Assembly: GCF_000812665.2 (NCBI RefSeq)
Contig: NZ_CP014327.1
Coordinates: 2,633,501 to 2,697,500, forward strand
DNA: 64,000 nt
Origin: Falsihalocynthiibacter arcticus
GTDB lineage: Bacteria > Pseudomonadota > Alphaproteobacteria > Rhodobacterales > Rhodobacteraceae
Reading direction: 5' to 3'
In this document: positions 10,731-42,338 of the stretch, piece by piece
Numbering within the stretch: the first letter of the stretch is position 1
Layout of the letters: the number at the start of each line of letters is the position of its first letter
Program-made: the position numbers and the translations under genes
The notes under the pieces: generated by a model
Seen by the model: only the letters and a program-made list of their open reading frames with translations
Database searches by the model: none
What the model was told of the DNA's origin: nothing

Positions 10731-11096
10731 TTAATTTTTTACTGGTTCTATATCTGAAGTCGCGCGCGCGATCTCCAAACCTTCGGATTTTACAATAAGG
10801 ACCACTTTCAATGTGGTGTTGCCATTTAGGTTAATGCCGCTTGAGCCAATGGTGTCGATGCTGCCAGCGCGGATCTGAAATTCACCAGACTGTCGCAGGT
10901 TCGCGGTGCCCGATGCGTCTTCCTTGGAAACGATCATTTCCGCCTCGACAACACCATCGGACAAGCCAAGTACACGGCCCGTTATGACAACTTTGGACTC
11001 TTGAGGGACGACAGAAAGTTCAGCGATGGCAATATCGCCACTTGCAGGCGCACTTAGGAACATACTGGCCAATACAACTGCAGAAAATCTGCGCAT
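10731..11096 (-). CDS. CsgH-like curli assembly chaperone (probable)
   Basis: 121 residues beginning at an ATG that lies inside a longer open frame fused to a GMC oxidoreductase fragment. Starting at 11096 gives a clean signal peptide (MRRFSAVVLASMFLSAPASG). The mature part has the beta-sandwich pattern I associate with alphaproteobacterial CsgH, including SGTANLRQSGEF and a final VLIVKSEG..I. CsgH is a periplasmic chaperone that keeps curlin monomers from aggregating. It begins 9 bases downstream of the stop of a curlin-like C-terminal remnant, which supports the assignment. I recognise the family from pattern memory only; a profile search would settle it. Confidence 0.62.
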   Translation of the reverse strand: MRRFSAVVLASMFLSAPASGDIAIAELSVVPQESKVVITGRVLGLSDGVVEAEMIVSKEDASGTANLRQSGEFQIRAGSIDTIGSSGINLNGNTTLKVVLIVKSEGLEIARATSDIEPVKN

Positions 11097-11104
11097 ATTT
11101 GACA

Positions 11105-11217
11105 CTATTGACTTAAAGTGGTTTGCGTAATCACAACTGTGCCAGCATTTGAAAACACAGCGGGGGAACCTGTCGCCGTCGTGTTGTTTCCAACCTGATT
11201 GAACGTTACGTTTGTGG
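11105..11217 (-). pseudogene. C-terminal remnant of a curlin-like (CsgA/CsgB-type) subunit gene
   Basis: In the frame ending at the TAG at 11107-11105 the minus strand encodes about 37 residues rich in Asn, Thr, Gln and Val, including NVTFNQVGNNTT and GTVVITQTTLSQ. This is the texture of the last curlin repeats (alternating polar/hydrophobic with Gln/Asn ladders). It is out of frame with the GMC oxidoreductase fragment that precedes it; the coding signal switches frame at about 11217. The gene therefore lost its 5' part, including signal peptide and most repeats, when the GMC gene was joined here. Confidence 0.58.
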
Positions 11218-11762
11218 TTGCCCTCGTTGAAATCGGTGGTCGACGGGATGCCCATTTGCGTGGCGGCATTTTGGAAATCATCAAGAATGTCCCACTTCAA
11301 ACGCTGGCGCGCGACCTTCCATTCGCCGCCTTGGCCGTGGGTTATTCCGTCTGCATCTGGGCGATCTTGGGAGCGGACAAAATAGGGGAGGACGTCGCTC
11401 CAACCCCAACCCGTATTGCCCATTTGCGCCCAGCCGTCATAATCCGCAGCTTGGCCGCGCATGTAAATCATACCGTTGATTGAGCTGCATCCGCCTAAGA
11501 CCTTGCCGCGCGGATAACCCAAAGCACGTCCGTTTAGCCCTTTTTCCGGGGTGGTCGACATCATCCAATCGGTGCGCGGATTCCCAATACAGCGGAGGTA
11601 TCCGACTGGAATGTGAATCCATGGGTAGGTATCCCGCCCACCTGCCTCAAGGAACAAGACCCTTGTGCGGGGATTGGCCGAGAGGCGGTTTGCCAGCACG
11701 CATCCCGCCGTGCCGCCCCCCACGATAATATAGTCGTAATCGCCGTCTAAACTGCGTGCCAT
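11217..11762 (-). pseudogene. GMC-family FAD oxidoreductase, N-terminal third only
   Basis: From the ATG at 11762 about 182 residues match the N-terminus of choline dehydrogenase/GMC oxidoreductases: FAD-binding DYIIVGGGTAGCVLANRLS, then FLEAGG, and PRGKVLGGCSSINGMIYMRG (GMC signature 1). Similarity stops after PSTTDFNEGN at about 11217, where intact members continue for some 350 more residues. Beyond the break the frame reads through out-of-frame curlin DNA into csgH. The substrate-binding and catalytic His/Asn region is absent, so the product cannot be active. Confidence 0.85.
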
Positions 11763-11801
11763 AGTCAATTCCAATTGTTCGAGATGTAACGGCGTTTGCA
11801 G

Positions 11802-14435: not shown

Positions 14436-15239
14436 TTAGACGCGCCCGATTTTGAACCCCCGCGAAAGATGATTTCGCATCGAAAAAAGTAACACCACAC
14501 CGGGCAGCATGGAGGCGAGGGTGACGGCCATGACCAGTCCAATATCGGTTTGAAACCCAAAGAGTGCGTTGATCGCCATGCTGATCGGTTTCCCGTTGGT
14601 TGTGGTCAGGATGCGCGCGAAAACCACCTCGACCCACGAGAACATGAAGCAGAAAAATGCTGTTACGGCGACGCCCGAAGCAATTTGGGGCAAAAGGAAT
14701 TTCCAAATAAACATAGGCCGCGAATAGCCGTCGATAAAGGCGGTTTCATCCATTTCCTTGGGAACGGCCGAGATAAACCCTTGGAGAATCCAGATCGAGA
14801 TTGGGACGTTGAACAGGCAATGTGCCAAGGCGATGCCGAAGGTTGAGTTCACGATTCCGAGTGCGGAGAAAAGTTGAAATATCGGTAGGGTTAGCACCAC
14901 GGGCGGGGTGATACGAAAGGCGATGAAGGCAAGGAACAGGTGTTTGTCGCCTAAGAAGGAAATGCGCGAGAAGGCGTAGGCCGCAGGGATGGCAACGGGT
15001 ATGGTGATGCAGATATTGATCAGCACGTAAGCGATGGAATTCAGGAACGCCGAGCGTAGGTTTGGGTCGGTCCAGATGCCCCGATAATTGCCTAGCGTGA
15101 GGCTTCCGACGTCCATATTTGGGGTTGCCAAAGTCGCGGTGAAGCTGAGGAGGGTCAGTTGCACCAGCGGCAGACAGGTGAACACCATGAAGGCCAGCAG
15201 GGCCGTTGTTTTGAGGAAAGGGAGCGCGCGGATAAGCAT
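14436..15239 (-). CDS. ABC transporter permease, GlpQ paralogue (MalG type)
   Basis: Inner-membrane permease, 267 residues, six helices. It is a clear paralogue of the GlpQ-type permease at 21899-22747: long shared strings include AYAFSR..FLGDKHLF, ALAHCLFNVP, VPKE.DETA.IDGYS and FMFSWVE. The EAA loop (DETAFIDGYSRPMFIWKFLLP) is preserved, so it should still contact an ATPase. The gene follows its partner permease by 2 bases. No ATPase or binding-protein gene accompanies this pair; it probably works with the GlpS/GlpT ATPases encoded divergently (inference), or is a relic of a duplicated operon. It converges with the TolB-like gene. Confidence 0.85.
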   Translation of the reverse strand: MLIRALPFLKTTALLAFMVFTCLPLVQLTLLSFTATLATPNMDVGSLTLGNYRGIWTDPNLRSAFLNSIAYVLINICITIPVAIPAAYAFSRISFLGDKHLFLAFIAFRITPPVVLTLPIFQLFSALGIVNSTFGIALAHCLFNVPISIWILQGFISAVPKEMDETAFIDGYSRPMFIWKFLLPQIASGVAVTAFFCFMFSWVEVVFARILTTTNGKPISMAINALFGFQTDIGLVMAVTLASMLPGVVLLFSMRNHLSRGFKIGRV

Positions 15240-15241
15240 GA

Positions 15242-16117
15242 TTAGGCGGCCTTTTCTGTGGGCACGTCATCAAGCTTGCCTTGGGCTTTGCTAAACATCC
15301 ACGCGACGGTCAACACGATCATGAAATAGAGCACAGAGCGCGCGGCGGAAGGGCCGTAGTTGAAGGCTTTAATTTCTTCGCCGAGGTCAACCGCGAGGAA
15401 CATTGTCGCGCCGTTTGGGCCGCCCGCATTGATGGGGAAGGCCTCCGTGTAAATCATGAAAGAATCCATGAACCGCAATAGGATCGCCATAAGGAGGACG
15501 TTGTATAGCTTGGGCAATTGGATGAACCGAAACACCTGCCACGGGCCTGCGCCGTCGATTGCGGCCGCTTGGTAGTGGGCTGCCGGAACGGTTGTCAGGG
15601 CACTATAACAGAGGATCACAACCAAGCTTGTCCAATGCCAAACGTCCATCACAATGATGACCAGCCATGTAGGAACCACCGAGAATTTCCAATCTGAGGG
15701 CCAGCCGAAAGCAGGTAGAATGCGCCCCAAAAGACCCGTGTCTGGGTTGAGGAGACTGAGCCAAAGTGATGGGATCATGTTCCACGGCACCAGAAGCGGC
15801 AAGGCCACCACACAGAGCGAGACGCCGACCCAGAATTTTCGTTGGGGGATGCAAAGGGCAATCGCAATGCCAAGGGGAATTTGGATGGTTAAGATCAGCG
15901 CCGAAAACAATGTACTGCGGCCAAAACTTGCCCAGAAACGGCCTGAACTTATGATCTCGGAGTACCATTCCGTCCCGACCCAGAAGCGCGAGTCTAGGAT
16001 GAAGATTTCGAAGAAGGAGTAATTAACGACGGTTATCAGAGGGATCAGCCCCACGAGGCCAAGCACGAGTAGGGCTGGCAAGACAAAGGTCCATCCGACG
16101 TTACTGCGCGTTTTCAA
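15242..16117 (-). CDS. ABC transporter permease, GlpP paralogue (MalF type)
   Basis: Inner-membrane permease, 291 residues, six helices, with a TTG start at 16117 behind GGGGGAG. Strongly paralogous to the GlpP-type permease at 21027-21899: IPL.TVVNYS, IPLGI..AL, VIVMDVWHWTSLV, YQAA.ID.A..W.VFRFI.LPK and ILLRFMDSFMIYTE.F are shared. It lies 34 bases downstream of glpR on the same strand, so regulator and both permeases form one minus-strand unit opposite the main glp operon. Its likely role is a second glycerol or polyol translocation pore sharing ATPases with GlpSTPQV. Confidence 0.85.
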   Translation of the reverse strand: MKTRSNVGWTFVLPALLVLGLVGLIPLITVVNYSFFEIFILDSRFWVGTEWYSEIISSGRFWASFGRSTLFSALILTIQIPLGIAIALCIPQRKFWVGVSLCVVALPLLVPWNMIPSLWLSLLNPDTGLLGRILPAFGWPSDWKFSVVPTWLVIIVMDVWHWTSLVVILCYSALTTVPAAHYQAAAIDGAGPWQVFRFIQLPKLYNVLLMAILLRFMDSFMIYTEAFPINAGGPNGATMFLAVDLGEEIKAFNYGPSAARSVLYFMIVLTVAWMFSKAQGKLDDVPTEKAA

Positions 16118-16151: not shown

Positions 16152-16910
16152 TTAAACCGTGACCACTTCGGTGCCCCAACTGCTACAATTCGCCAGCAGA
16201 TCTTTGGACAATGTACCGTCGGTAAAAAGAGCGCTCACATCCGCGAGAGAGCAGATTGTGAGCGGTGCTTTGCGTTGAAATTTAAGATGATCTGCAACGA
16301 CCATCACTTTACGCGAGCGTTTTATGGCGGTGCTGCTGACCATAATCTCCTGCCCGTCGAAATCAAGCAGGTCGCCGTCCTCATCAATGGCGGAACAGCC
16401 TAAAACCGAATAGTCAAACTTGAATTGTTTTACCATTTCAACGGTTAAGCCACCGACAATGCCACCATCGGCACGGCGCAAAACGCCACCGGCCAAAATG
16501 ATTTCGCAACTATGGTTGGCCGCAAGAATATTCGCGATGTTAATGTTGTTTGTCACCACCAATAGGTTTTCGTGGTCGAGCAGTTCGCGCGCCACGGCCT
16601 CGGTACTTGTCCCAATGTTCATAAAGACCGACGCGCCATTTGGGATTGCTTCGGCGCATTTCACGGCAATCGCCTTCTTGCCCGTATCGTTCAGGCGGCG
16701 GCGTTCCTCATATTGAATATTCACAACGCCAGACGACACCACCGCGCCGCCATGCACCCGTTGAAGACGGCCGCGATCGGCCAAATCAGAGAGGTCGCGC
16801 CGGATAGTTTGCACCGTGACATCATAAAGTTCGGCAAGGCCATCCACGGTAACTTTGCCCTCTTTGCGCGCAAGTTCGAGGATATCTTTCTGTCTAAAGT
16901 TTGAGACCAT
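16152..16910 (-). CDS. glpR: DeoR-family regulator of glycerol metabolism (GlpR-like)
   Basis: 252 residues from the ATG at 16910, with GGGAGAAAG upstream; the longer reading from 16952 adds an unlikely leader. N-terminal DeoR HTH: RQKDILELARKEGKVTVDGL followed by LYDVTVQTIRRDLSDLADRG, then RVHGGAV. The C-terminal DeoRC sugar-phosphate sensor domain has FMNIGTSTEAVARELL and the ILAGGVLRRADGGIVGG stretch. Its position, divergent from glpD and all glycerol genes, identifies it as the glp repressor; glycerol-3-phosphate is the inducer in characterised GlpR proteins. Confidence 0.88.
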   Translation of the reverse strand: MVSNFRQKDILELARKEGKVTVDGLAELYDVTVQTIRRDLSDLADRGRLQRVHGGAVVSSGVVNIQYEERRRLNDTGKKAIAVKCAEAIPNGASVFMNIGTSTEAVARELLDHENLLVVTNNINIANILAANHSCEIILAGGVLRRADGGIVGGLTVEMVKQFKFDYSVLGCSAIDEDGDLLDFDGQEIMVSSTAIKRSRKVMVVADHLKFQRKAPLTICSLADVSALFTDGTLSKDLLANCSSWGTEVVTV

Positions 16911-17070
16911 GGCTTTCTCCCTGACGTCGCGTAATAGAATCCTAACAATCAACAGTCCGAGCGGAGCGTCAAGGGTTCGAATCGATTTGCGTAGATAAAA
17001 TTCGCCAAAAGGGAGGGAATAGGAAAATTAAATGCATGGATTTCAACATTTTACCCAAAAAGGAAAAGAA

Positions 17071-17079: not shown

Positions 17080-17170
17080 CGCTATTGATTTGCGGAGTGG
17101 CTTAGTGTTGTCTTAATGAATGTTGAGCGCTGGGAGGCGGCGACAGAAAATCGACGCTTGGGAGGCTTCA

Positions 17171-18769
17171 TTGAATCAACGTAATCTTCACGACATCGTG
17201 GACCTTTTCGTCATTGGCGGCGGCATCAATGGATGCGGTATTGCGCGTGACGCGGTTGGCCGTGGTTTGAGTGTTGAGTTGGCGGAAATGAACGATCTGG
17301 CCTCTGCAACGTCCTCTGCCTCCACCAAGCTTTTTCACGGCGGATTGCGCTATCTTGAGTATTTTGAGGTCCGCCTTGTTCGCGAGGCGCTGATCGAGCG
17401 CGAGACCCTTCTCAAAGCGATGCCGCATATCTCATGGCCGATGCGATTTGTGTTGCCTTACCACAAGGATATGAGGTTCGACACCGACACTCCGACTTCA
17501 AAATTGCTCAGTATTGTGATGCCTTGGATGAAGGGGCGCCGCCCTGCGTGGCTCATTCGGTTCGGGCTTTTCCTCTATGATAATCTGGGTGGTCGCCAAA
17601 TTCTGAAGGGGACAACCTCTTTGAGTTTGGCTGGAACGCCAGAAGGCGCGCCGCTGCAGGAGCGCTTTGAAAAAGCCTACGAATACTCCGATTGCTGGAT
17701 CGAAGACAGCCGCTTGGTGGTTCTGAATGCGCGGGATGCTCAGGCGCGTGGCGCAAAAATCAATGTGCGCACCAAGGTTGTGTCCGCCGAGCAAGTTGAT
17801 GGCCTTTGGGAAATTACGCTGGAGCCAAAAGGTTTGCCGCGACGTGTGGTTCGGGCCCGTATGCTGGTAAATGCGGGCGGCCCTTGGGTTGAGGATATTA
17901 TCCGCAACACGGTGCGGATCAATGCCACAGAAGGCGTGCGACTGGTGCGGGGCAGTCATATCGTGACGCCCAAATTATACGATCACGACAAATGTTATTT
18001 CTTCCAAGGCGAAGATGGTCGGATTATTTTCACAATCCCCTACGAGACTGATTTTACGTTGATCGGAACCACGGATGCCGAGCATACTGACGTGTCACAG
18101 AAGCCCGTTTGTACCCCAGAAGAGCAAGCCTATCTTGTTGAATTTGCGTCGAAGTATTTGAAAACGCCTGTCACCACGGATGATATCGTCTGGACCTATT
18201 CCGGCGTGCGCCCTTTGTATGATGACGGCGCGACCTCTGCGACGGCGGCAACCCGTGACTATGTGTTGAAAGTTGATGAATCCGCGGGAGCGCCAATCCT
18301 GAACATCTTTGGCGGTAAGATCACCACCTATCGCCGGTTGGCCGAGAACGCGTTTAAAAAGATAGCGCCATTTTTTCCAAATGCAGGCGAACCCTGGACC
18401 GCAGGAGTTCCAATGCCGGGAGGGGATTTTCCCGTTGATGGGGTCGCGGATTTGCAAGCGCGGCTTACGGCGCAATACCCGTTTTTAACTGAACGCTGGG
18501 CAGTGCGGCTGATCAAAGCCTATGGCTTGGATGCCTTTGAGGTTCTTGGGGATGCGAAAACAGAATCCGATCTGGGGCAGCCTTTTGGTGCTACACTGAC
18601 TGAACGGGAAGTTATCTGGCTGGTGCAAAAGGAGTTTGCACGTTCCGCAGAAGACATCGTTTGGCGTCGTTCAAAATTAGGCCTACGCTTGTCCAAAGAC
18701 GAAATCGAAATGCTTGACGCATGGCTGGCCAAAGCGCCCGTAATGTCATTGCAGCAAGGCGCAGTGTAA
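17171..18769 (+). CDS. glpD: Aerobic glycerol-3-phosphate dehydrogenase
   Basis: FAD-linked membrane-associated enzyme that oxidises glycerol-3-phosphate to dihydroxyacetone phosphate and feeds electrons to quinone. About 532 residues from the TTG at 17171, chosen because GGAGG sits 5 bases upstream; reading from 17120 would bury that site. FAD-binding DLFVIGGGINGCGIARDAVG near the N-terminus; STKLFHGGLRYLEYFE motif at about 50; IIFTIPYETDFTLIGTTD and GGKITTYRRLAENA are standard GlpD signatures; a C-terminal helical domain follows. First gene of the plus-strand glycerol operon. Confidence 0.95.
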   Translation: MNQRNLHDIVDLFVIGGGINGCGIARDAVGRGLSVELAEMNDLASATSSASTKLFHGGLRYLEYFEVRLVREALIERETLLKAMPHISWPMRFVLPYHKDMRFDTDTPTSKLLSIVMPWMKGRRPAWLIRFGLFLYDNLGGRQILKGTTSLSLAGTPEGAPLQERFEKAYEYSDCWIEDSRLVVLNARDAQARGAKINVRTKVVSAEQVDGLWEITLEPKGLPRRVVRARMLVNAGGPWVEDIIRNTVRINATEGVRLVRGSHIVTPKLYDHDKCYFFQGEDGRIIFTIPYETDFTLIGTTDAEHTDVSQKPVCTPEEQAYLVEFASKYLKTPVTTDDIVWTYSGVRPLYDDGATSATAATRDYVLKVDESAGAPILNIFGGKITTYRRLAENAFKKIAPFFPNAGEPWTAGVPMPGGDFPVDGVADLQARLTAQYPFLTERWAVRLIKAYGLDAFEVLGDAKTESDLGQPFGATLTEREVIWLVQKEFARSAEDIVWRRSKLGLRLSKDEIEMLDAWLAKAPVMSLQQGAV

Positions 18770-18790: not shown

Positions 18791-19882
18791 ATGTCACTTG
18801 TTCTAGAGGGCGTGTCGAAGGTTGCGAATGGCCAGACACATATTTACCCCACCGACTTAGAGCTGCAGTCCGGCACTATGAATGTTTTGCTTGGGCCAAC
18901 CTCATCGGGCAAGACATCCTTGATGCGTTTGATGGCTGGACTCGATGTGCCTAATACGGGCAAAGTTATCTGGAACGGTCAGGATGTGACAGGCATGCGT
19001 GTGCAGGAGCGCGGGATTGCCATGGTCTATCAACAGTTCATTAATTACCCGTCGATGAGTGTTTACGACAATATCGCCAGCCCGATGCGCCTTTTGGGGC
19101 AATCGGCGGACCAGATCGACAAGGCCGTTAAGAAGGCCGCCGACCTGATGAAACTAGCACCGTTTCTTGAGCGCAAGCCGCTTGAGCTTTCGGGTGGTCA
19201 GCAACAGCGGTGTGCGTTGGCGCGGGCGCTGGTGAAGGATGCGGGCCTTGTTTTGCTGGATGAGCCATTGGCAAACCTCGACTATAAGCTGCGCGAAGAA
19301 TTGCGCGCCGAGATCCCGAAAATCTTTGAGGAAGCTGGCTCGATCTTTGTCTATGCGACCACGGAACCCGAAGAAGCACTATTGTTGGGTGGCAACACCG
19401 CGACCCTCTGGGAAGGCAAAATCACCCAATTTGGGTTGACGCCTTTCGTTTACAGACAGCCCGTGGATGCGACCACCGCCCGCGTATTTTCCGATCCGCC
19501 GATGAATTTCCTCCCTGTTCAAAAGGTCGGAAACCGCTTGAAGTTTGGCAATGACCAAACAGATAGCGCGGCTTCGGGGGCCTTTGCTGATCTTAAGGAT
19601 GGCCGTTACGTCGCGGGGTTCCGACCCAACCATCTGAAGCTTGAAAAGCACACGCAAGGCGCTCTGGAATTCACGGGTAAGCTGAACGTAACCGAGATAA
19701 CGGGGTCGGAAACATTCATCCACCTCGACCACCACGGCGAAAACTGGGTTGGTTTGGTGCATGGCGTGAAGATACTGGAAATTGGCGCTTCGTTGAAGGT
19801 CTATCTGGATCAAAGCCATGTTTACATCTTTGCAGAAGATGGCACTTCGGTCGCCCCAGCAACTTATGCAACCGCAGCCTGA
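18791..19882 (+). CDS. glpS: Glycerol ABC importer ATPase GlpS; switch His missing
   Basis: One of two different ATPases of the GlpSTPQV-type glycerol importer known from Rhizobium leguminosarum. 363 residues. Walker A GPTSSGKTS (about 35), Q-loop YQQF, canonical signature LSGGQQQR (about 135) and Walker B LLDEPLANLD (about 155) are present. The H-loop reads FVYATTEPEEA where importers have V-T-H-D-Q, so the switch His is replaced by Thr. A TOBE-like C-terminal domain follows. GGGAGAGAG ribosome site; 21 bases after glpD. Confidence 0.92.
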   Translation: MSLVLEGVSKVANGQTHIYPTDLELQSGTMNVLLGPTSSGKTSLMRLMAGLDVPNTGKVIWNGQDVTGMRVQERGIAMVYQQFINYPSMSVYDNIASPMRLLGQSADQIDKAVKKAADLMKLAPFLERKPLELSGGQQQRCALARALVKDAGLVLLDEPLANLDYKLREELRAEIPKIFEEAGSIFVYATTEPEEALLLGGNTATLWEGKITQFGLTPFVYRQPVDATTARVFSDPPMNFLPVQKVGNRLKFGNDQTDSAASGAFADLKDGRYVAGFRPNHLKLEKHTQGALEFTGKLNVTEITGSETFIHLDHHGENWVGLVHGVKILEIGASLKVYLDQSHVYIFAEDGTSVAPATYATAA

Positions 19883-19893
19883 GGGACATTCAA

Positions 19894-20973
19894 ATGGCAA
19901 AAATCACCCTCGAAAATCTGGCACATTCGTACCTGCCCAATCCGAAAAGCGACGACGACTACGCGCTGAAAGAATTGAACCACGACTGGGTGGATGGCGA
20001 AGCTTACGCCCTGCTTGGGTCGTCAGGTTGTGGCAAGTCCACGCTGCTCAACATCATTTCGGGTCTACTACATCCTAGCCAGGGTCGTATCCTGTTTAAT
20101 GACCGTGACGTGACAATGGAGCCGACGACGCAGCGCAATATCGCGCAGGTTTTCCAGTTTCCCGTTGTTTATGATACAATGACCGTGCACGACAATCTGG
20201 CGTTTCCGCTGCGCAACCGTGGGGCTGATCCCGCCTATATCAAAGAACGCGTTCAGCAAATAGCGGCGATGATTGGCATGGAGGCCACCCTTGGTCACAA
20301 GGCGCGCGGGCTGACTGCGGACGCAAAACAGAAGATTTCGTTGGGACGTGGCATGGTGCGCGAAGACGTGAATGCGCTTTTGTTTGATGAGCCGCTGACC
20401 GTGATTGACCCACATATGAAATGGGAATTGCGCACACAGCTTAAATCGCTGCACCACGAATTCGGCCACACGATGATCTATGTGACCCACGACCAGACCG
20501 AGGCCCTGACTTTTGCGGATAAAGTGGTGGTTATGTATGACGGGCGGGTTGTGCAAATGGGTACACCGCAAGAACTTTTTGAAACGCCAGCGCATACGTT
20601 TGTTGGCTATTTCATCGGCTCTCCGGGGATGAATGTTCTGTCTGCCGAAGTGACGGGAAATACCGCCCTGATTGGTGGCACAGAGATCGCGCTTGGCAAA
20701 GGCTATGGCAGTCCAAAAGGCAAAGTCGAACTTGGCGTTCGGCCCGAATTTACCGCGCTCGTTGCGGGTAACGAAGGTCTGCCCGTGACCATTAAGCGGG
20801 TCGAGGATGTTGGCCGCCACAAAATCGTGCGCGCCGATTTCCAAGGGACCGAGATCAATATCCTCGCCGAAGAAGGTGCTAACATTTCACCCGACATGAA
20901 CCGAGTCGTGTTCGATACGGCTGGAGTGAACGTCTATTCCGATAGTTGGCGGGTTCCCCCGCAAGGAGCGTGA
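19894..20973 (+). CDS. glpT: Glycerol ABC importer ATPase GlpT; degenerate signature motif
   Basis: Second ATPase of the glycerol importer, 359 residues. Walker A LGSSGCGKST (about 49), Q-loop QVFQFPVVYDT, Walker B LLFDEPLTVIDP and the switch His in IYVTHDQTEA are intact. The ABC signature is not: LSGGQ is replaced by LTADAKQKISLGRGM (about 140). With GlpS this predicts a heterodimer with one canonical ATP site (GlpT Walker/His with GlpS signature) and one degenerate site (GlpS Walker without His, facing the GlpT pseudo-signature). Not to be confused with the enterobacterial glycerol-3-phosphate antiporter of the same name. Confidence 0.92.
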   Translation: MAKITLENLAHSYLPNPKSDDDYALKELNHDWVDGEAYALLGSSGCGKSTLLNIISGLLHPSQGRILFNDRDVTMEPTTQRNIAQVFQFPVVYDTMTVHDNLAFPLRNRGADPAYIKERVQQIAAMIGMEATLGHKARGLTADAKQKISLGRGMVREDVNALLFDEPLTVIDPHMKWELRTQLKSLHHEFGHTMIYVTHDQTEALTFADKVVVMYDGRVVQMGTPQELFETPAHTFVGYFIGSPGMNVLSAEVTGNTALIGGTEIALGKGYGSPKGKVELGVRPEFTALVAGNEGLPVTIKRVEDVGRHKIVRADFQGTEINILAEEGANISPDMNRVVFDTAGVNVYSDSWRVPPQGA

Positions 20974-21026: not shown

Positions 21027-21899
21027 ATGAATAAGACAGTCAACCAAAAGGCCTGGTTCCTCGTTTTACCAGTGCTGCTCCTTGTCGCGTTTTCTGCGGT
21101 TATTCCTTTGATGACCGTTGTGAATTATTCGGTTCAAGACACCTTCGGAAAAAACGTATTTTTCTGGGCTGGCCTCGATTGGTTCCGTGATATGATGGCC
21201 TCAGAACGCATGTGGAATGCGCTGGGTCGCCAGATCGCGTTTTCCTGTATCATCCTTGCCATTGAAATTCCGCTGGGGATTTTCGTGGCGCTGAACATGC
21301 CGAAAAAAGGGTTCTGGGCCTCGTTTTGCCTGATCCTGATGTCGTTGCCCTTACTTATTCCGTGGAACGTTGTGGGCACCATTTGGCAGATTTTCGGGCG
21401 CGTTGATATTGGTCTTTTGGGCTATACACTGGCCGCCTTGGGGATTGATTATAACTACACCCAAGACTTCTATGCTGCATGGGTGACCGTCATTGTGATG
21501 GATGTTTGGCACTGGACTTCGTTAGTTGCGCTTTTGGCTTATGCGGGGCTTCAGTCGATCCCCGATGCCTATTACCAAGCAGCGAAAATCGACCAAGCCA
21601 GCCGTTGGAAAGTATTCCGCTTTATTGAGCTGCCCAAGATCATGGGCGTCCTTATGATCGCGATCCTGTTGCGCTTTATGGACAGCTTTATGATCTACAC
21701 CGAGCCTTTCGTGGTGACGGGTGGTGGACCGGGAAATTCGACGACGTTCTTGTCGATTGACTTGGTCAAGATGGCGCTAGGACAGTTTGATCTTGGCCCC
21801 GCAGCCGCCTTCTCGATCATGTATTACCTCGTGATCCTGTTGATTTCATACGTCTTCTACACTGTGATGACGAACCTTGATAAAAGGGATGGCCACTGA
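21027..21899 (+). CDS. glpP: Glycerol ABC importer permease GlpP
   Basis: MalF-type inner-membrane permease, 290 residues, six helices. The EAA loop is YYQAAKIDQASRWKVFRFIE, preceded by VIVMDVWHWTSLV. The stop codon overlaps the glpQ start by one base (TGATG), so the two are translated together. The 53-base gap before the gene carries a short ATG-rich stretch with no convincing gene. Paralogous to the permease at 15242-16117. Confidence 0.92.
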   Translation: MNKTVNQKAWFLVLPVLLLVAFSAVIPLMTVVNYSVQDTFGKNVFFWAGLDWFRDMMASERMWNALGRQIAFSCIILAIEIPLGIFVALNMPKKGFWASFCLILMSLPLLIPWNVVGTIWQIFGRVDIGLLGYTLAALGIDYNYTQDFYAAWVTVIVMDVWHWTSLVALLAYAGLQSIPDAYYQAAKIDQASRWKVFRFIELPKIMGVLMIAILLRFMDSFMIYTEPFVVTGGGPGNSTTFLSIDLVKMALGQFDLGPAAAFSIMYYLVILLISYVFYTVMTNLDKRDGH

Positions 21900-22747
21900 T
21901 GTCTGATTTTACCAACACAGCGCAAAAGCGTGGCTTTGCTTTACCCAAGATCAGAGGCAACGCCATTGTTATGGGCCTTTACTTGCTGTTCTTGCTTTTG
22001 CCGATCTATTGGCTTTTGAACATGAGCCTCAAGACCAACTCGGAGATTTTGAACAACTTCACCCTTTGGCCACAGGATTTGACCTTCGACAACTACCTGA
22101 CGATCCTGACGGATCCGTCGTGGTACACGGGCTATCTGAATTCGATGACTTATGTGGTCATGAATATGGTGATCTCCCTCGCGGTTGCGCTGCCAGCGGC
22201 TTACGCTTTCAGTCGTTATACTTTCCTTGGGGATAAGCATTTGTTCTTTTGGTTGCTCACCAATCGGATGGCGCCCCCCGCCGTTTTCGCGCTGCCGTTT
22301 TTTCAGCTCTATAGCTCGGTCGGGTTGTTCGACACGCATATTGCCGTCGCTCTCGCGCACTGCCTGTTTAACGTGCCGTTGGCGGTTTGGATCTTGGAAG
22401 GGTTTATGCGGGGTGTGCCGAAAGAAATCGACGAGACCGCCTATATCGACGGCTATTCTTTCCCACGGTTCTTTATTCGGATTTTCACGCCCTTGGTTGC
22501 CTCTGGTATTGGGGTCACCGCGTTCTTCTTGTTCATGTTCAGCTGGGTTGAATTGCTTCTAAGCCGGACGTTGACCAGTGTGAATGCGAAACCGATTGCC
22601 GCCACAATGACACGGACCGTCGGTGCCGCAGGGATCGACTGGGGTGTGCTCGCAGCAGCGGGCGTCCTGACGATCGTTCCCGGTGCATTGGTGATCTATT
22701 TTGTCCGTAACTACATCGCCAAAGGCTTTGCCTTGGGTCGCGTGTAA
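21899..22747 (+). CDS. glpQ: Glycerol ABC importer permease GlpQ
   Basis: MalG-type permease, 282 residues, six helices, partner of GlpP. EAA loop DETAYIDGYSFPRFFIRIF; further markers AYAFSRYTFLGDKHLF and ALAHCLFNVP. It starts on the last base of the glpP stop and is followed 23 bases later by glpU. Paralogous to the permease at 14436-15239. Confidence 0.92.
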   Translation: MSDFTNTAQKRGFALPKIRGNAIVMGLYLLFLLLPIYWLLNMSLKTNSEILNNFTLWPQDLTFDNYLTILTDPSWYTGYLNSMTYVVMNMVISLAVALPAAYAFSRYTFLGDKHLFFWLLTNRMAPPAVFALPFFQLYSSVGLFDTHIAVALAHCLFNVPLAVWILEGFMRGVPKEIDETAYIDGYSFPRFFIRIFTPLVASGIGVTAFFLFMFSWVELLLSRTLTSVNAKPIAATMTRTVGAAGIDWGVLAAAGVLTIVPGALVIYFVRNYIAKGFALGRV

Positions 22748-22770: not shown

Positions 22771-23043
22771 ATGGAATGGATGGCATGGACTTGGCCGACC
22801 GCCGCTTTCTTTGGGGTTATCGCGGCAACGCTGATTACTTTTACGACCCTTGCGATTAAATTCCCCGAGGTGCCGCGCAATGGCGTCCTTGGGATTGAAA
22901 CAACGCGCGGTGACCGACTGTTCATCACGCTACTTGGCTCGGCCTTTATTAATCTGGCTTGGCTTGGAATGCTCAGTGCCCCCCAATGGGGAGCCCTGAT
23001 CGTATGTCTCTTTTATGCCATCGCGGTTTTCCGCTGGGTATAA
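22771..23043 (+). CDS. glpU: Small membrane protein GlpU (DUF2160-type)
   Basis: 90 residues with three hydrophobic segments (about 1-25, 45-65 and 70-88). Small proteins of this kind sit between glpQ and glpV in rhizobial glycerol operons; the sequence start MEWMAWTWPTAAFF and the middle KFPEVPRNGVLGIETTRGDR fit that family. AGAGGAGAAACA ribosome site. Its function is not established; a stabilising or assembly subunit of the importer is plausible. The stop is followed by a hairpin before glpV. Confidence 0.82.
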   Translation: MEWMAWTWPTAAFFGVIAATLITFTTLAIKFPEVPRNGVLGIETTRGDRLFITLLGSAFINLAWLGMLSAPQWGALIVCLFYAIAVFRWV

Positions 23044-23058
23044 GGGACGGCATTATGG

Positions 23059-23087
23059 GGCGGTCCCAATTATAAAAAATGACCGCC
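23059..23087 (+). repeat. Stem-loop between glpU and glpV
   Basis: GGCGGTC and GACCGCC form a 7-bp stem around a 15-base AT-rich loop, 16 bases after glpU and 30 bases before the glpV start. It may act in mRNA processing that separates the binding-protein message from the membrane-protein message. Confidence 0.4.
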
Positions 23088-23116
23088 TTACTTGTTCTAT
23101 TTTTGGGAGGACTAAA

Positions 23117-24841
23117 ATGAACTTACGACTACTTAAAGGGACGACTGCGCTCGGACTTGCAGCTTGCATGCTCACCGCGCCGGCGTTCGCAGACATGGAG
23201 GCCGGCAAGGCTTTCCTCGACAGCGAGATCGGCGATCTTTCGACGCTGTCGCGTGCCGATCAAGAAGCTGAACTTCAGTTTTTTGTCGATGCGGCACAGC
23301 CGTACCAAGGCATGTCGATCAACGTTGTCTCCGAAACAATCGGAACGCACGAGTATGAGGCCAATGTTTTGGCTCCAGCGTTCGAAGCCATCACCGGCAT
23401 CAAGGTCACACATGACCTGATCGGCGAGGGCGATGTTGTTGAAAAGCTGCAAACACAAATGCAGTCGGGCGAAAATATCTATGACGCCTATATCAACGAC
23501 TCCGATTTGATCGGGACGCACTGGCGTTACCAACAGGCGCGTAACTTGACCGACTGGATGGCGGGTGAGGGTGCTTCTGTTACCAACCCCAACCTTGATC
23601 TGGAAGATTTTATTGGTCTTTCATTCACCACGGGTCCGGATGGCAAAATTTATCAGTTGCCAGACCAACAATTCGCGAACCTTTACTGGTTCCGGTATGA
23701 TTGGTTCAACGACGAGCAAAACAAAGCGGACTTCAAAGAGAAGTACGGCTACGATCTCGGCGTTCCTGTAAACTGGTCCGCCTATGAGGACATCGCTGAA
23801 TTCTTCACGGGTCGTGACTTGTCGCGTCTTGGCGTAGAAGGCGAAGTCTTTGGCAACATGGACTATGGCAAAAAAGACCCATCCTTGGGTTGGCGCTATA
23901 CTGATGCGTGGTTGTCCATGGCTGGCGCTGGGGACGAAGGCGTGCCAAACGGTCTGCCAGTTGACGAATGGGGTATCCGCGTTAACGAAAACTCACAGCC
24001 TGTTGGCTCGTGCGTTGCGCGTGGCGGTGCCACAAACGGCCCAGCAGCAGTTTACGCTGTGACCAAAGCAATCGAATGGTTGGAAAAATATTCTCCACCC
24101 GCGGCTGCTGGTATGACATTCTCCGAAGCGGGCCCAATTCCTGCACAGGGTAATGTTGCTCAACAAATGTTCTGGTACACGGCCTTTACTGCGGCCTCGG
24201 TTGAGCCTGATCTGCCTGTGATGAACGAAGATGGTACGCCAAAATGGCGTATGGCCCCTTCGCCACACGGCGCATATTGGACTGAAGGAACAAAAATCGG
24301 CTACCAAGATGCCGGTTCTTGGACTTTGATGAAATCCACTCCTGTGGATCGTGCTCAAGCGGCTTGGCTCTATGCCCAATTCGTTACGTCCAAAACTGTT
24401 GACGTGAAGAAAAGCCATGTTGGCCTCACATTCATCCGTGAATCCACAATCCAGCATGATAGCTTTACCGAACGTGCACCAAAACTTGGTGGTCTCGTTG
24501 AATTCTACCGTTCGCCAGCGCGCGTTCAGTGGTCGCCAACAGGTACAAACGTACCTGACTATCCAAAATTGGCACAGTTGTGGTGGCAGAACATCGGCGA
24601 CGCAATGTCCGGTGCGAAGACTCCACAAGAGGCCCTCGACACGCTTTGCGCAGACCAAGAAAAGGTTATGATCCGTCTTGAGCGTGCAGGTGTCCAAGGT
24701 GATATCGGTCCGAAAATGAACGAAGAGAGCGATCCTTCTTTCTGGCTCGATCAGCCTGGTTCGCCAAAAGCGAAACTGGCCAACGAAGACGAAGATCCCG
24801 TCACGATTTCCTATGACGAGCTGATCAAGTCTTGGCAGTAA
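23117..24841 (+). CDS. glpV: Glycerol ABC importer substrate-binding protein GlpV
   Basis: Periplasmic binding protein, about 574 residues, unusually long for a binding protein but normal for this glycerol-specific family. The start is the ATG at 23117 with GGGAGG upstream; the reading from 23015 overlaps glpU and lacks a signal. Signal peptide MNLRLLKGTTALGLAACMLT then APAFA-DM. The mature protein carries Trp-rich regions typical of sugar/polyol binding (YQLPDQQFANLYWFRYDWF, LGWRYTDAWLSMAG). Flanked by hairpins on both sides, in line with high, separately tuned expression. Confidence 0.93.
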   Translation: MNLRLLKGTTALGLAACMLTAPAFADMEAGKAFLDSEIGDLSTLSRADQEAELQFFVDAAQPYQGMSINVVSETIGTHEYEANVLAPAFEAITGIKVTHDLIGEGDVVEKLQTQMQSGENIYDAYINDSDLIGTHWRYQQARNLTDWMAGEGASVTNPNLDLEDFIGLSFTTGPDGKIYQLPDQQFANLYWFRYDWFNDEQNKADFKEKYGYDLGVPVNWSAYEDIAEFFTGRDLSRLGVEGEVFGNMDYGKKDPSLGWRYTDAWLSMAGAGDEGVPNGLPVDEWGIRVNENSQPVGSCVARGGATNGPAAVYAVTKAIEWLEKYSPPAAAGMTFSEAGPIPAQGNVAQQMFWYTAFTAASVEPDLPVMNEDGTPKWRMAPSPHGAYWTEGTKIGYQDAGSWTLMKSTPVDRAQAAWLYAQFVTSKTVDVKKSHVGLTFIRESTIQHDSFTERAPKLGGLVEFYRSPARVQWSPTGTNVPDYPKLAQLWWQNIGDAMSGAKTPQEALDTLCADQEKVMIRLERAGVQGDIGPKMNEESDPSFWLDQPGSPKAKLANEDEDPVTISYDELIKSWQ

Positions 24842-24989: not shown

Positions 24990-26477
24990 ATGACCTACAT
25001 CCTCGCGATTGACCAAGGCACGACCTCAACACGTGCGATTGTGTTTGATAGAACGATGGCCGTCGTTACCAGCGAACAACAAGAGTTCGCCCAACATTTC
25101 CCCCACTCCGGCTGGGTTGAACACGCGCCCGCCGACCTGTGGAATACCACGCTTGCCGCCTGTCATGGGGCGATCAAACATGCCGAAATCTCACCCACAG
25201 ATATTGCCGCCATCGGGATCACCAACCAACGCGAAACCACAATTGTTTGGGACAAGATCACGGGCGAACCCCTTTATAACGCTATTGTTTGGCAAGACCG
25301 GCGCACGGCCAATCAATGCCGTACCCTGCGCGAGGCTGGCCATGAAGAGATGATCACCGCGCGTACAGGTCTTTTACTGGACCCTTATTTTTCGGGTACA
25401 AAACTCAAATGGGTTTTGGACCATGTTGAGGGCGCACGCGAACGTGCCGCCAAGGGTGAATTGCTCTTTGGTACCGTCGATAGTTTCCTGATTTGGAAGC
25501 TGACGGGGGGCGCAGTTCATGCCACAGATGCAACAAATGCCGCGCGCACAATGCTTTACGACATTCGCAAAGGCCGTTGGAGCAAAACGATTTGCGACCT
25601 GCTTGAAATCCCGATGGAGATGTTACCAGAGGTCAAGGATTGCGCCGCTGATTTCGGTAAAACGGACGCGGATTTGTTTGGCCGCGCGATCCCGATTTGT
25701 GGCGTTGCTGGCGATCAACAAGCCGCGACCATCGGGCAGGCGTGTTTTCAGCCGGGTATGATGAAATCGACCTACGGCACGGGGTGTTTTGCGCTTTTGA
25801 ATACGGGCGAAACTCCTGTTGTGTCGCAAAATCGCTTGCTGACCACGATCGCCTATCAACTGGACGGAAAACCTACCTACGCGCTTGAGGGGTCTATTTT
25901 TGTTGCCGGAGCCGTTGTGCAATGGCTGCGTGATGGGTTGCAAATCATCCAAGACGCCTCGGAGACGCAAGCGCTGGCTGAACAGGCGGACCCGCATCAA
26001 AATATTGTTTTGGTCCCCGCCTTTGTGGGCCTCGGTGCACCCTATTGGAATGCGGAATGTCGAGGGGCTGTTTTTGGGCTAACCCGTGGATCTGGACCCG
26101 CGGAAATGGCCAAGGCCGCACTGGAAAGTGTTGGTTATCAGACCCGTGATTTATTGGATGCCATGTCCGCTGATTGGCAAGCGACAGGTGTTCAACCAAC
26201 CCTGCGGGTTGATGGTGGCATGTCGCAAAACGATTGGGCGATGCAGTTCCTTTCGGATATTATCGCCGCCCCTGTGGACCGCCCAATGAACCTCGAAACC
26301 ACGGCCCTTGGTGTGGCATGGCTCGCGGGAATGCATGTTGGTGTTTACCCTGATCAGGCAGAATTTGCAGAACAATGGGCCCGTGAAACCCAATTTGTAC
26401 CGCATATGGACGAGGCCCAACGCCAAGAAAAATATACAACTTGGAAAAAAGCCGTCGACGCGACACTTAGCTTTTAG
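24990..26477 (+). CDS. glpK: Glycerol kinase
   Basis: Phosphorylates glycerol to glycerol-3-phosphate with ATP, trapping it in the cytoplasm for GlpD. 495 residues, the usual length. FGGY-family markers: [13 protein letters not shown] (phosphate loop), [14 protein letters not shown] with the glycerol-binding Arg-Glu pair, [29 protein letters not shown] and a C-terminal ALGVAWLAG. Last gene of the plus-strand glp operon, separated from glpV by 148 bases with a hairpin; converges with a GntR gene 84 bases further on. Confidence 0.96.
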
Positions 26478-38447: not shown

Positions 38448-39432
38448 CTACCCTCCAAAATCATTATTGAAAATCCGCTCAGGATCGACCCCAAGATCGT
38501 CCAGCATCGTCAGTACGGCGCGGATCATTAGGGGCGGTCCGCAGAGGTAGTATTCGCAATCATGCGGTGCTGGATGTGCGGCAAGATGGCCGCGTAAAGC
38601 AACCTCATGAATAAAGCCCGTTTCGCCTTGCCAGTTGTCGTCGGGGTCCGAGAGTGCTGCGGTCCAATGAAAATTAGTGTGTTTTTCCTGTAAAAGTTCA
38701 AATTCCTGTTCGTAAAATAAACCCATACGACTGCGCGCGCCATACCAAAAGCTGATTTTGCGCGTGGTACCTTGTCGCTCCAATTGGTCCGAGATGATCG
38801 CCCGCAGGGGGCCATGCCGACTCCGCCGCCGATGAAAACCATTTCGCGTTTACTGTCCTGTGCGGCGAAGGTGCCGAAGGGGCCCGACATGTTCACCTTA
38901 TCCCCTTCAGCGCAGCCAAACAGCCACGACGATACAATCCCAGGTGGCAGTTCTGCGCGATTTGGCGGAGGCAGGTCCAACACAATTTCGCGGATAAGTG
39001 GCGCAACGGAGCGGCTCGAAACCACCTGACAAACCCACGACTTGGCTTGCAACATGCTTTCGGGCAGGGTGATCGATATGTTGTCCCGTAGCGTGGTTTG
39101 ACAGGCCAACCGCACACCCTTGGCAATATCTTGGCGCGACAGCAACGCCGTTTCGGTTTGGAGGGCTGGTGTGCGGCCTTGCATCACCTGAGCGCGACAC
39201 TGGCCGCAGGTTCCCGCGCCCCCACAGGCCGATGGAATGACCACCCCACCGTCCGAGAGGATCGTGAGGAGTTTGTTGCCCGTTTTGGCCGTGATTTCCT
39301 GACGTCCGTTTACTTGAATCGTCACGTTTTTTGCGGGCATCAGAAAGGCGCGCGCCGCCAGTACAACTGTGACCAGCAACAAGACAATACAAACAAAAAC
39401 CACGCTTCCTAGCAGGACCTCAATCAAAAGGC
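38448..39432 (-). pseudogene. nqrF: Na+-NQR subunit F (NADH dehydrogenase subunit), frameshifted and fused to nqrE
   Basis: Encodes the membrane-anchored NADH-oxidising subunit: N-terminal helix, 2Fe-2S ferredoxin domain ([16 protein letters not shown] ... RLACQ, all four Cys present), then FAD/NADH domain ([10 protein letters not shown], later YYLCGPPLM and the C-terminal NDFGG). The frame breaks after [10 protein letters not shown]: a run of five C (38807-38811 on the plus strand as G) lacks one base, and the rest ([11 protein letters not shown] to the end) is in another frame. Upstream it has no own start; it is joined in frame to the first 58 residues of NqrE. Sequencing error could explain the frameshift but not the fusion. 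Confidence 0.85.
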
Positions 39433-39607
39433 CCTGAAATATCAAGTGGTTCACCGGTACGGTGATGGATTGAACCACGATCATCGCAATCCCAAGCCAA
39501 AAGGCTATTTCCACCCGTTTGGACACAGCAAGGAAGGTGCAGATCCCGAGGAAGAAGGTGAGCGCAAGGTTTTCCCGAAGGACGGATTGAACGAAAAGTT
39601 CGATCAT
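39433..39607 (-). pseudogene. nqrE: Na+-NQR subunit E, N-terminal 58 residues, fused to nqrF
   Basis: From the ATG at 39607: [20 protein letters not shown] then [16 protein letters not shown] and VPVNHLIFQ, the standard NqrE N-terminus including the first cluster-ligand Cys. Intact NqrE has about 200 residues and six helices; here only about one and a half helices remain. The second ligand Cys and the rest are deleted, and the frame runs directly into NqrF. The junction is at about 39433. The start overlaps the nqrD stop by 4 bases as in intact operons. Confidence 0.85.
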
Positions 39608-40266
39608 GGCTGATCCCCCACGCGTGCGGGCAAGATCGGAAATTCATCGTCTTCGATTTGTGCAGGGCGGCGCGAGCGGATGCCCCAGATCATCAGGCCG
39701 ATGATGAAGAAGGCGCTTGGTGCAAGGAGCATGAAGCCAAGCGGTTGGAACCAGCCACCTGTCGCAACCAAGGGCAGAACTTGTTGACCGAACAGGGAAC
39801 CAGACCCCATCAACTCGCGGATTGTCGCCACGATCATGAGGATCATTCCATAACCAAGCCCGTTGCCCAAACCGTCCATCAAGCTCGGCCAAACCGGATT
39901 GCGCATCGCAAAGGATTCCGCACGGCCCAGCACGATGCAGTTGGTCACGATCAGCCCCACAAACACCGACAACCGCTGGCTAATTTCAAACGCAAAGGCA
40001 CGCAGCACCTGATCGGCGACGATCACCAGCGAGGCAATGATAGTGATTTGAACCACGAGGCGGATCGACGAAGGCAGGTGATTTCGGATCATACTGATCG
40101 CCGTGCTGGCGGCGGCTAGAACCGCCATCAAGGCAAGGCTCATGGTCAAGGCGGTGTCCAGCGCGGTGGTCACAGCCAACGCCGAGTAGATACCCAGCAT
40201 TTGCAAAGTAATGGGGTTATTGTCAATCAGTGGCGCCGTCAGATAGTGCATGTTTGATCTGGTCAT
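39604..40266 (-). CDS. nqrD: Na+-NQR subunit D, full length but lacking a cluster-ligand Cys
   Basis: Integral membrane subunit, 220 residues, six helices, open throughout. [51 protein letters not shown] and [11 protein letters not shown] are NqrD hallmarks. In characterised NqrD the first segment reads G-V-C-S-A-L-A-V-T; here the Cys (Cys29 in Vibrio numbering) is Tyr. The second Cys (TNC) is kept. That Cys pair, with two from NqrE, holds the intramembrane iron centre needed for electron transfer, so even an assembled complex should not work. Confidence 0.86.
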
Positions 40267-40717
40267 TTTACATGTCCCCCGACTTAAGGCGCTTCAGCAA
40301 ACGGGCCATATCCATCCGTGCCCAACCAGAAACGCACGAGATTTGAAAGCCCCGTCGTCGAGCGCGTTGCCCCCGCAATGCCGTCCACTTCGAACGGGGT
40401 TGCGCCCGTGCCGCGCACCACCGATATGGTGATTTCACCGGCCGTGTTGGCCGTCTGTTTGCCCGACCATTGCGCCAACCATGCCGGATCGGTGACACGT
40501 GATCCCAGTCCGGGAGTCTCGCCTTGCTCATAGATGCTCAGGCCCGCAACAGTGTTCAAATCACCTTCAAGGGCAAGGTCCGCGCGGAGGGTTGATTGAT
40601 ATCCCGCACCATAAATCGGCAGGACAACAAGCGACAAGCCTTTGTTTCCACGTATAAAATACACGGGGGCATGATTTGGCCGTACTTTAATTGCGGCGAG
40701 GTCAACCTCGGGACGGA

Positions 40718-40724
40718 GGGGGGG
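40718..40724. other. Homopolymer frameshift site in nqrC
   Basis: Seven consecutive G on the plus strand (C on the coding strand). Six would restore the frame between AAQTDSSQ and LRPEVDLAAIK. Comparable one-base errors in C/G runs occur in tctB (33903-33911) and nqrF (38807-38811). Confidence 0.7.
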
Positions 40725-40879
40725 TGCTTTGGCTTGAATCGGTCTGCGCCGCGAGGAAATCATAGCTGGCGGCGTCGATGGTTTCGTCTATTTTTCCAGC
40801 CGCTAGATCGACAATCACGGTGTCCAATGTTTCCGCGCCTGTCTCGCGCAAAATATCCGCTAATCCGGGGAGGAAACAC

Positions 40880-40904
40880 TGGAGTGCCCCCATCGGGTGG
40901 TCCA
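40880..40904. repeat. IS3-family terminal inverted repeat, distal end
   Basis: TGGAGTGCCCCCATCGG then GTGGTCCA; matches the opposite end (42119-42144) with a few mismatches and a one-base length difference. Confidence 0.75.
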
Positions 40905-40913
40905 GTTTGAATG

Positions 40914-41780: not shown

Positions 41781-41797
41781 ACGGCGACGGGAAGGGC

Positions 41798-42076
41798 TTA
41801 GAGGTTTCCCCGTGCGGCCTCGGTGAGGATCATCTTGTCCAAGGACAGATCTGCCACGACGCGCTTGAGACGTTGGTTTTCAGTCTCAAGCTCCTTCAGC
41901 CGTTTGAGTTGATCACGGCTCATGCCCCCATATTCCTTGCGCCAGCGATAGTAAGTCTGAATGGTAACGCCGATTTATCGAACGGCCTCGGAAACTGACT
42001 TTCCCTGCCCTTGTAAAACTTCAACCTGCCGAAGCTTCAGCACAATATCTTCCGGCTTTTCTCGTTTTCCAGCCAT
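41798..42076 (-). pseudogene. IS3-family transposase OrfA, interrupted by a stop
   Basis: From the ATG at 42076 (AGGAGGACTAAACG leader): GKREKPEDIVLKLRQVEVLQ, HTH helix, GVTIQTYYRWRKEYGGMSRD and a leucine-zipper region LKRLKELETENQRLKRVVAD. Codon 34 is TAA (41977-41975), between SVSEAVR and IGVT; a Gln codon is expected there. Full length would be 92 residues. Without OrfA the frameshifted transposase cannot be made. Confidence 0.85.
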
Positions 42077-42118
42077 CGTTTAGTCCTCCTAAAAACGGGA
42101 TAATCATATCCCAATTGG

Positions 42119-42144
42119 TGGACCACTTCGCTGGGGGCATTCCA
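42119..42144. repeat. IS3-family terminal inverted repeat, proximal end
   Basis: TGGACCACTTCGCTGGGGGC then ATTCCA; complement of the repeat at 40880-40904 with mismatches in the middle. It lies 43 bases upstream of orfA. Confidence 0.75.
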
Positions 42145-42338
42145 TGGCCACCATCGCGGCAAATTTGGCTTCACGGGCGGCATCAATAAGCGCCTGTTGA
42201 CGCGGTTGAAGCAACACAGATGTGAGGGACACGGTGAGGGCGGAAATCAGTGCGACCAAAAAGGCGACTCCCAAAGTTTTGACTCGATTATCATTGGGAA
42301 GGGCCAGAAAACGACGCCACCAAGTGAGGGGGGAGAAT

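Follow-up and report, generated by a model that had tools for sequence, protein, structure and literature searches.

The two ATP sites of MalFGK2, the textbook example of a type I importer, are equivalent and canonical, both being formed by a single kind of ATPase, as in other MalK/CUT1 importers. In Rhizobium leguminosarum, a glycerol ATP-binding cassette (ABC) importer has been the subject of a genetic study in a strain other than UPM791 (Ding 2012, as cited in PMC7912956), and the glp operon is described as glpSTPQUV flanked by glpD and glpK (PMC7912956; the papers cited here by accession are drawn on from the excerpts available). A paper with Ralstonia among its keywords reports that glpS and glpT transcripts shift together with those of the remaining glp genes when growth on glycerol and on glucose is compared (PMC11223650). 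The available excerpts of PMC7912956 and PMC11223650 do not mention an ATP-site asymmetry for GlpSTPQUV. Here, we analyze a 64,000-nucleotide stretch of Falsihalocynthiibacter arcticus (contig NZ_CP014327.1, positions 2,633,501 to 2,697,500), hereafter called the window, in which a GlpSTPQUV operon is found with the R. leguminosarum content (glpD, glpK, two ATPases, two permeases, a DUF2160 protein, and a binding protein). Its two ATPases, GlpS and GlpT, carry complementary departures from the canonical motifs that recur in every homologous pair we could read, which suggests a heterodimer with one catalytically complete and one degenerate ATP site.

The glpS gene (18791..19882, 363 amino acids; PF00005 at 95.7 bits) and the glpT gene (19894..20973, 359 amino acids; PF00005 at 85.5 bits, OB_MalK at 32.6 bits against a cut-off of 27) encode MalK-type ABC ATPases, lie on the + strand as do all motifs given below, and were found in the list of open reading frames (ORFs) of the window where the original prediction had placed them. 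Their translations bear out what had been read there, namely a GlpS with the signature LSGGQQQR and without the switch His, and a GlpT with VTHDQ and with LTADAKQK for a signature. In GlpS, the intact signature (19187..19210, residues 133 to 140) would complete a canonical site together with GlpT, and the Walker B and D-loop segment (LLDEPLANLDYKLR, 19253..19294) is likewise intact, including Glu158. The GlpS H-loop YATTEPEEAL (19352..19381, residues 188 to 197) has Thr191 in the switch-His column. In GlpT, Walker A (GSSGCGKST, 20017..20043) and the H-loop (YVTHDQTEAL, 20479..20508, residues 196 to 205, with His199) are intact, and the Q-loop (VFQFPVVYDTMTV, 20149..20187) has its Gln, followed by residues that differ from those of canonical relatives. 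The GlpT signature region (LTADAKQKISLGRGM, 20311..20355) has lost SGG and reads LTADAKQK at residues 140 to 147, where LSGGQ is expected. We also observe lesions beyond the two originally described: the A-loop region of GlpS (VSKVAN, 18812..18829) lacks its aromatic Tyr and has Ala in the window, the GlpS Walker A (GPTSSGKTS, 18893..18919) has its Lys without the Ser-Gly of canonical GxSGxGK, and the D-loop of GlpT, which follows an intact Walker B with Glu166 (LFDEPLTVIDPHMKWELR, 20380..20433), reads LTVIDP. The Walker A Lys and the Walker B Asp-Glu are retained in both proteins.

DUF2160 (PF09928) and the permease GlpQ, neither of which selects on the ATPases, served as anchors for finding homologous loci. 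DUF2160 was matched in 41 of 289 genomes of the window's class, in 106 of 397 genomes of its phylum, and in 9 of 198 genomes from the phylum of a Desulfopila genome, which we take to be distinct from Pseudomonadota. From these we took 40 of the 42 class-level places outside the window's genome (G288:C9 and G061, both weak, were omitted) and 40 hand-chosen phylum-level places. Of the latter, 8 are alphaproteobacterial, span 7 genomes, and include four weak ones, and the rest come from other classes, of whose 39 matching genomes 32 were used. All eight Desulfopila-phylum places besides that in the genome of L146 were added. These 88 stretches and the best 80 of 592 GlpQ relatives from an alignment search gave 168 loci, from which 7 belonging to another system and 8 without a readable pair were removed, leaving 153, or 154 pairs with the window. 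The eight comprise four loci at contig ends (L087, L093, L132, and L139), three with one or both genes but a GlpS that is truncated (L085), masked (L215), or beyond the contig end (L218), and L089, where both genes share one draft ORF and the lesions look alike by eye.

In all 154 readable pairs, GlpS is without the His and has SGG, and GlpT has the His and is without SGG. The GlpS proteins of these pairs fall into 102 clusters at 80% identity, with a lowest pairwise identity of 37%, and the 102 cluster representatives together with the window make up the 103 sequences used below. Canonical MalK-like controls, comprising 19 other GlpT matches in the window's genome (E of 1e-30 or better) and 7 ATPases from weak DUF2160 loci, have both the His and an SGG signature in 26 of 26 cases (25 LSGGQ and 1 LSGGE). 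The two losses thus co-occur in every readable pair, which is the check that the original prediction had asked for, and no homologue with a single lesion, the case named as telling against that prediction, is found among the 154. A sequencing error or an oddity private to this genome is ruled out by the same constancy. The most divergent pair, L219, with a GlpS 39% and a GlpT 42% identical to those of the window, has both lesions, with Pro in place of the His. Its A-loop Tyr is still in place, a sign that this residue was lost later in other GlpS proteins, and the pair may be an early branch. The seven loci of the other system (L068-L070, L183, and L185-L187) were considered as early branches and rejected, each having one canonical ATPase of a sugar-type system, with permeases 26 to 37% identical to GlpP/GlpQ. 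The DUF2160 match in these loci is short and weak, and sugar-type importers may more widely have DUF2160-like proteins as an accessory.

The altered motifs are themselves strongly conserved, which rules out a relaxed, decaying site and speaks for a maintained state. Among 156 tallied GlpS sequences, the switch-His column holds Thr in 141, Ser in 12, Pro in 1, and a gap in 2, and the A-loop Tyr is present only in L219, with one further sequence showing a gap. Val occupies the A-loop position in 95 of 103 GlpS sequences, and the H-loop Glu and Pro are found in 102 and 100 of the 103 aligned representatives, respectively. GlpT has Lys145-Gln146 and LTVIDP in 103/103 and the H-loop His in 154/154.

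A nucleotide site takes Walker A and B and the A-, Q-, and H-loops from one chain and the signature and X-loop from its partner, and the D-loops lie at the center (PMC7756269). We compared GlpS and GlpT (103 sequences each) with 62 columns conserved across 24 canonical relatives. Of 13 such columns in Walker A and the H-loop, 7 are altered in GlpS and none in GlpT, and within the signature and D-loop the counts are reversed, at 0/13 for GlpS and 7/13 for GlpT. The D-loop was counted with the signature by choice and the Q-loop is absent from these 13-column counts; a Fisher test gives p = 6e-4, which is descriptive, since the columns are not independent. Each protein also has a few departures outside the motifs. 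Of the departures in Walker A, the H-loop, the signature, and the D-loop, those of GlpS all lie in its own nucleotide motifs and those of GlpT all in motifs lent to the partner, in agreement with the original prediction that both faults share one composite site. Going by the alignment, the A-loop, Walker A, H-loop, and signature departures are predicted to meet in the site formed by the GlpS nucleotide motifs and the GlpT signature (site 2), the other site (site 1) having all of these intact. GlpS would thereby donate an intact signature and hold the degenerate nucleotide site, and GlpT would hold the catalytically complete one and donate an altered signature. The further claim that the other site is fully canonical stands for its catalytic residues but not for the Q-loop, where three GlpT columns are altered just after the Gln, so that site 1 is better described as catalytically complete than as wholly canonical.

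An alternative is that ATP is hydrolyzed at both composite sites, the changes in H-loop, signature, and D-loop being peculiar to the lineage and leaving site 2 functional. GlpS has the Walker A Lys and the catalytic Glu in 103/103, and in the DppABCDF importer, which likewise has two different ATPases, a Glu-to-Gln exchange in either single ATPase left evident and similar activity, from which its authors conclude that both ATPases are able to hydrolyze (PMC12136057). However, site 2 loses the H-loop residue counted as catalytic in MalK, where H192 and E159 are treated as catalytic residues (PMC8134467; Thr191 and Glu158 in GlpS), as well as the A-loop aromatic and the partner's SGG, and none of these is missing from site 1. 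Moreover, the Opp/Dpp-like ATPases of this genome (pairs L220-L222 and the fused L227; Opp, Liv, and RbsA names were assigned from motifs and layout) have the His and SGG in both chains or halves. We consider two working sites unlikely.

GlpS and GlpT were not found apart in a scan of 199 genomes. On these, a GlpT profile gave 42 matches of at least 489 bits, with the next at 299.5, and a GlpS profile on the identical genomes gave 42 of at least 407 bits, with the next at 273. Both profiles name the same 42 genomes, with the two genes on one contig in each and their starts 1057 to 1152 bases apart, and neither protein occurs alone among the 199 genomes at that score gap. Separate homodimers serving different permeases could be imagined, given the orphan permease pair that lies behind glpR (14436-16117) with no ATPase adjoining. 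Yet a GlpS homodimer would be without the His and a GlpT homodimer without SGG in both of its sites, and the genes occur only together and adjacent across the 199 genomes, which makes this arrangement highly improbable. Only the heterodimer would have one complete site. That neither homodimer would have a complete site is probably why two ATPases are kept, which fits their co-occurrence in 42 of 42 genomes.

Structural models are in line with such a pairing of related chains. The AlphaFold2 model of GlpS has a mean predicted local distance difference test (pLDDT) of 89.6 and its best PDB match is MalK (4khz_B, Z 38.3, 358 aligned residues, root mean square deviation [rmsd] 3.2), an alignment obtained although GlpS has no OB_MalK match. 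The GlpT model (mean pLDDT, 89.2) matches 2it1_B, a relative of MalK (Z 38.5, 351 aligned residues, rmsd 2.4). Both proteins are, according to these models, full-length MalK folds. In a tree built from 22 pairs together with 24 canonical ATPases, each of the two proteins forms a single clade (100/100) on a long stem, of 1.0 for GlpS and 1.46 for GlpT as drawn. A sister grouping of the two, as expected from one local duplication, is neither supported nor rejected (approximately unbiased test, p = 0.42). The simplest history would be one origin for each lesion, kept since.

We consider it probable that the two ATPases assemble into an obligate heterodimer, in which one site is catalytically complete and the other is degenerate and conserved in that state. 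This proposal draws on a sequence pattern that holds in every readable pair, on how strongly the altered motifs are conserved, and on the strict co-occurrence of the two genes. The heterodimer would sit beneath the GlpP/GlpQ permease. Site 1, combining the A-loop, Walker A and B, Q-loop, and H-loop of GlpT with the LSGGQ of GlpS, would have every catalytic residue and hydrolyze ATP. Site 2, combining the nucleotide motifs of GlpS with the LTADxKQK of GlpT, most likely still binds nucleotide via its intact Walker A Lys and Walker B but hydrolyzes it slowly, if at all, and would act as a structural clamp when the dimer is closed. An import cycle driven by approximately one ATP would then be plausible. 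A variant that shares the heterodimer has site 2 essentially empty, with no nucleotide bound, in a one-nucleotide machine. It would fit the near-complete loss of the A-loop aromatic from GlpS and the lost Walker A Ser-Gly, but it makes it hard to explain why the Walker A Gly-Lys-Thr, the Q-loop Gln, and the Walker B Asp-Glu (including Glu158) are each found in 103/103 GlpS sequences. A nucleotide-loaded clamp is the more likely state of site 2, and we regard the empty site as rather unlikely, if a little less so than two working sites.

Several points weigh against the obligate heterodimer with a single complete site. Each protein departs at three columns of its own Q-loop, beside the conserved Gln, and when the Q-loop and Walker B are added to the count, own-site departures become 10/23 for GlpS and 3/23 for GlpT. 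Under a laxer cut (less than 20% agreement), the partner-site departures come to 1/13 in GlpS and 9/13 in GlpT. Since the Q-loop also touches the permease (PMC7756269), its alterations may have to do with how the ATPases dock onto GlpP and GlpQ. With the catalytic Glu of GlpS retained, site 2 might still hydrolyze ATP slowly. Finally, some genomes were entered twice (L036/L128 and L055/L140), and because each protein forms one clade in the tree, the 154 pairs tell of strict maintenance and not of repeated origin.

We also put forward, more tentatively and with less confidence than in the heterodimer itself, that the MalK family holds an ancient, strictly kept one-engine branch. In this branch, site 2 of GlpST would have been rebuilt as a conserved, non-hydrolytic, nucleotide-loaded clamp (H-loop TTEP, signature LTADxKQK, and D-loop LTVIDP). 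The result would be a type I importer that takes up glycerol for approximately one ATP, with GlpST possibly shared with orphan GlpP/GlpQ-like permease pairs. If true, asymmetric ATP sites would have had separate origins among CUT1, CUT2, and branched-chain amino acid importers.

Ordered by ORFs and profile scans, the operon reads glpD-glpS-glpT-glpP-glpQ-DUF2160-binding protein-glpK, with glpR divergent. Upstream of the ATPases lie the glpR-like DeoR regulator (16152..16952, -, identified by profile matches) and the glycerol-3-phosphate dehydrogenase gene glpD (17120..18769, +; NF008899, 739 bits against a cut-off of 360). Downstream, all on the + strand, follow two BPD_transp_1 permeases identified by profile, glpP (21027..21899, named from operon order) and glpQ (21899..22747, our ATPase-independent anchor), and a small DUF2160 membrane protein (22771..23043; PF09928, 120.1 bits) that is probably GlpU, a name taken from its place in the operon. 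The substrate-binding protein, probably GlpV (23015..24841, +; PF01547, 39.5 bits), has an uncertain start codon. Its ORF overlaps the end of the DUF2160 gene and an internal Met precedes what by eye resembles a signal peptide, which suggests a true start downstream of that of the ORF. The glycerol kinase gene glpK (24990..26477, +; TIGR01311, 696.5 bits against a cut-off of 590.35) closes the series. Homology and gene neighbors point to glycerol as the probable transported substrate.

Behind glpR, with no adjoining ATPase or binding protein, lie the orphan permeases at 14436-15239 (-) and 15242-16117 (-), 49% identical to GlpQ and 46% identical to GlpP, respectively. Similar pairs without adjacent GlpS/GlpT are present in L139 (directly behind glpK), L242, L243, and L244, and more GlpP/GlpQ-like pairs in L246 (behind glpK), L247, and L248. 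Such pairs may share GlpST or another ATPase. L139 also shows part of a canonical ATPase on the opposite strand. Elsewhere in the window, an ORF at 10731-11774 (-) carries the N-terminal part of a GMC oxidoreductase (profile positions 1 to 126 of 218) followed by an unrelated-looking C-terminal stretch, and looks like a truncated or fused gene. An Rnf-type-like electron transport cluster at 38528-43178 (-), named by eye, contains a transposase-like ORF (40914-41780), by which it is possibly interrupted. A PHROGs scan added nothing.

GlpST would be a natural MalK-type machine in which one altered site has been kept across distant bacteria. Site-specific GlpST mutants would offer a direct test of how many hydrolysis events an import requires and of the purpose of an idle second site. 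The two ATPases are not interchangeable, and annotation should name and model them as a pair.

Among known systems, the operon of R. leguminosarum UPM791 pRlvE is the same system, with the order from glpD to glpK as here and the identical lesion pattern (LSGGQQQR and YATTEPS in GlpS; LTADQKQK, LTVIDP, and YVTHDQ in GlpT). It differs in glpR, which is co-oriented with the operon in UPM791 and divergent here. A tblastn search of GlpT against plasmids matched 252 records, 121 of them from Rhizobium. With MalFGK2-like importers of the MalK/UgpC type (CUT1), the window's system shares the MalK fold with its MalK-like C-terminal domain, two BPD_transp_1 permeases, and an SBP_bac_1 binding protein in the operon. 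It differs in having two ATPases and one complete plus one degenerate site instead of two equivalent canonical sites, all 154 pairs departing at one site.

The original prediction likened this asymmetry to that of exporters, transposed to a type I importer. As in TAP, TM287/288, BmrCD, and TmrAB, catalytic and binding residues are lost from one composite site only, with paired H-loop and signature changes and, here, Walker A departures confined to that site. The likeness holds only in part, since GlpST is an importer and, unlike in most degenerate exporter sites, the Walker A Lys and catalytic Glu are kept. Lack of the catalytic Glu is a hallmark of the degenerate site in exporters (PMC7544095), and GlpS has Glu158 in 103/103, so site 2 is not degenerate in the usual exporter way. 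When consensus residues were introduced into the degenerate site of TAP, ATP hydrolysis fell, and the review that reports this infers that a site without hydrolysis is needed (PMC7756269).

Complementary lesions in importers do have precedent in RbsA-type and, partly, in LivF/LivG-like ATPases. The permeases of CUT2 importers belong to a different family from that of GlpPQ. RbsA and NupO, both CUT2, have one degenerate site each (PMC11466899), as in GlpST, but carry two domains per chain and have lost the Walker A Lys. In this genome, the RbsA-like fused ATPases L228, L229, and L231 have an altered signature in the first half, and their second half has neither the His nor the Walker A Lys; L226 shows a like pattern divided between two ORFs, and the reading of L230 covers its first half. 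GlpS and GlpT, in contrast, are encoded by two genes, with the Lys in 103/103 GlpS sequences. The LivF-like chains of three pairs in this genome (L223-L225) have Gln for the His and keep the Walker A Lys and Walker B Glu, and two of their three LivG-like partners have altered signatures (LSRGD and LSHGQ), the third having LSGGQ. LivF/LivG also consists of two separate ATPases, from a different family than GlpST and with a looser asymmetry, in which the signature change is not strict. We found no report of asymmetric ATP sites in the MalK family in the open-access literature, outside of which most subscription papers lie. Compared with these systems, the new part seems to be asymmetric sites in a MalK/CUT1-type importer with separate ATPase genes.

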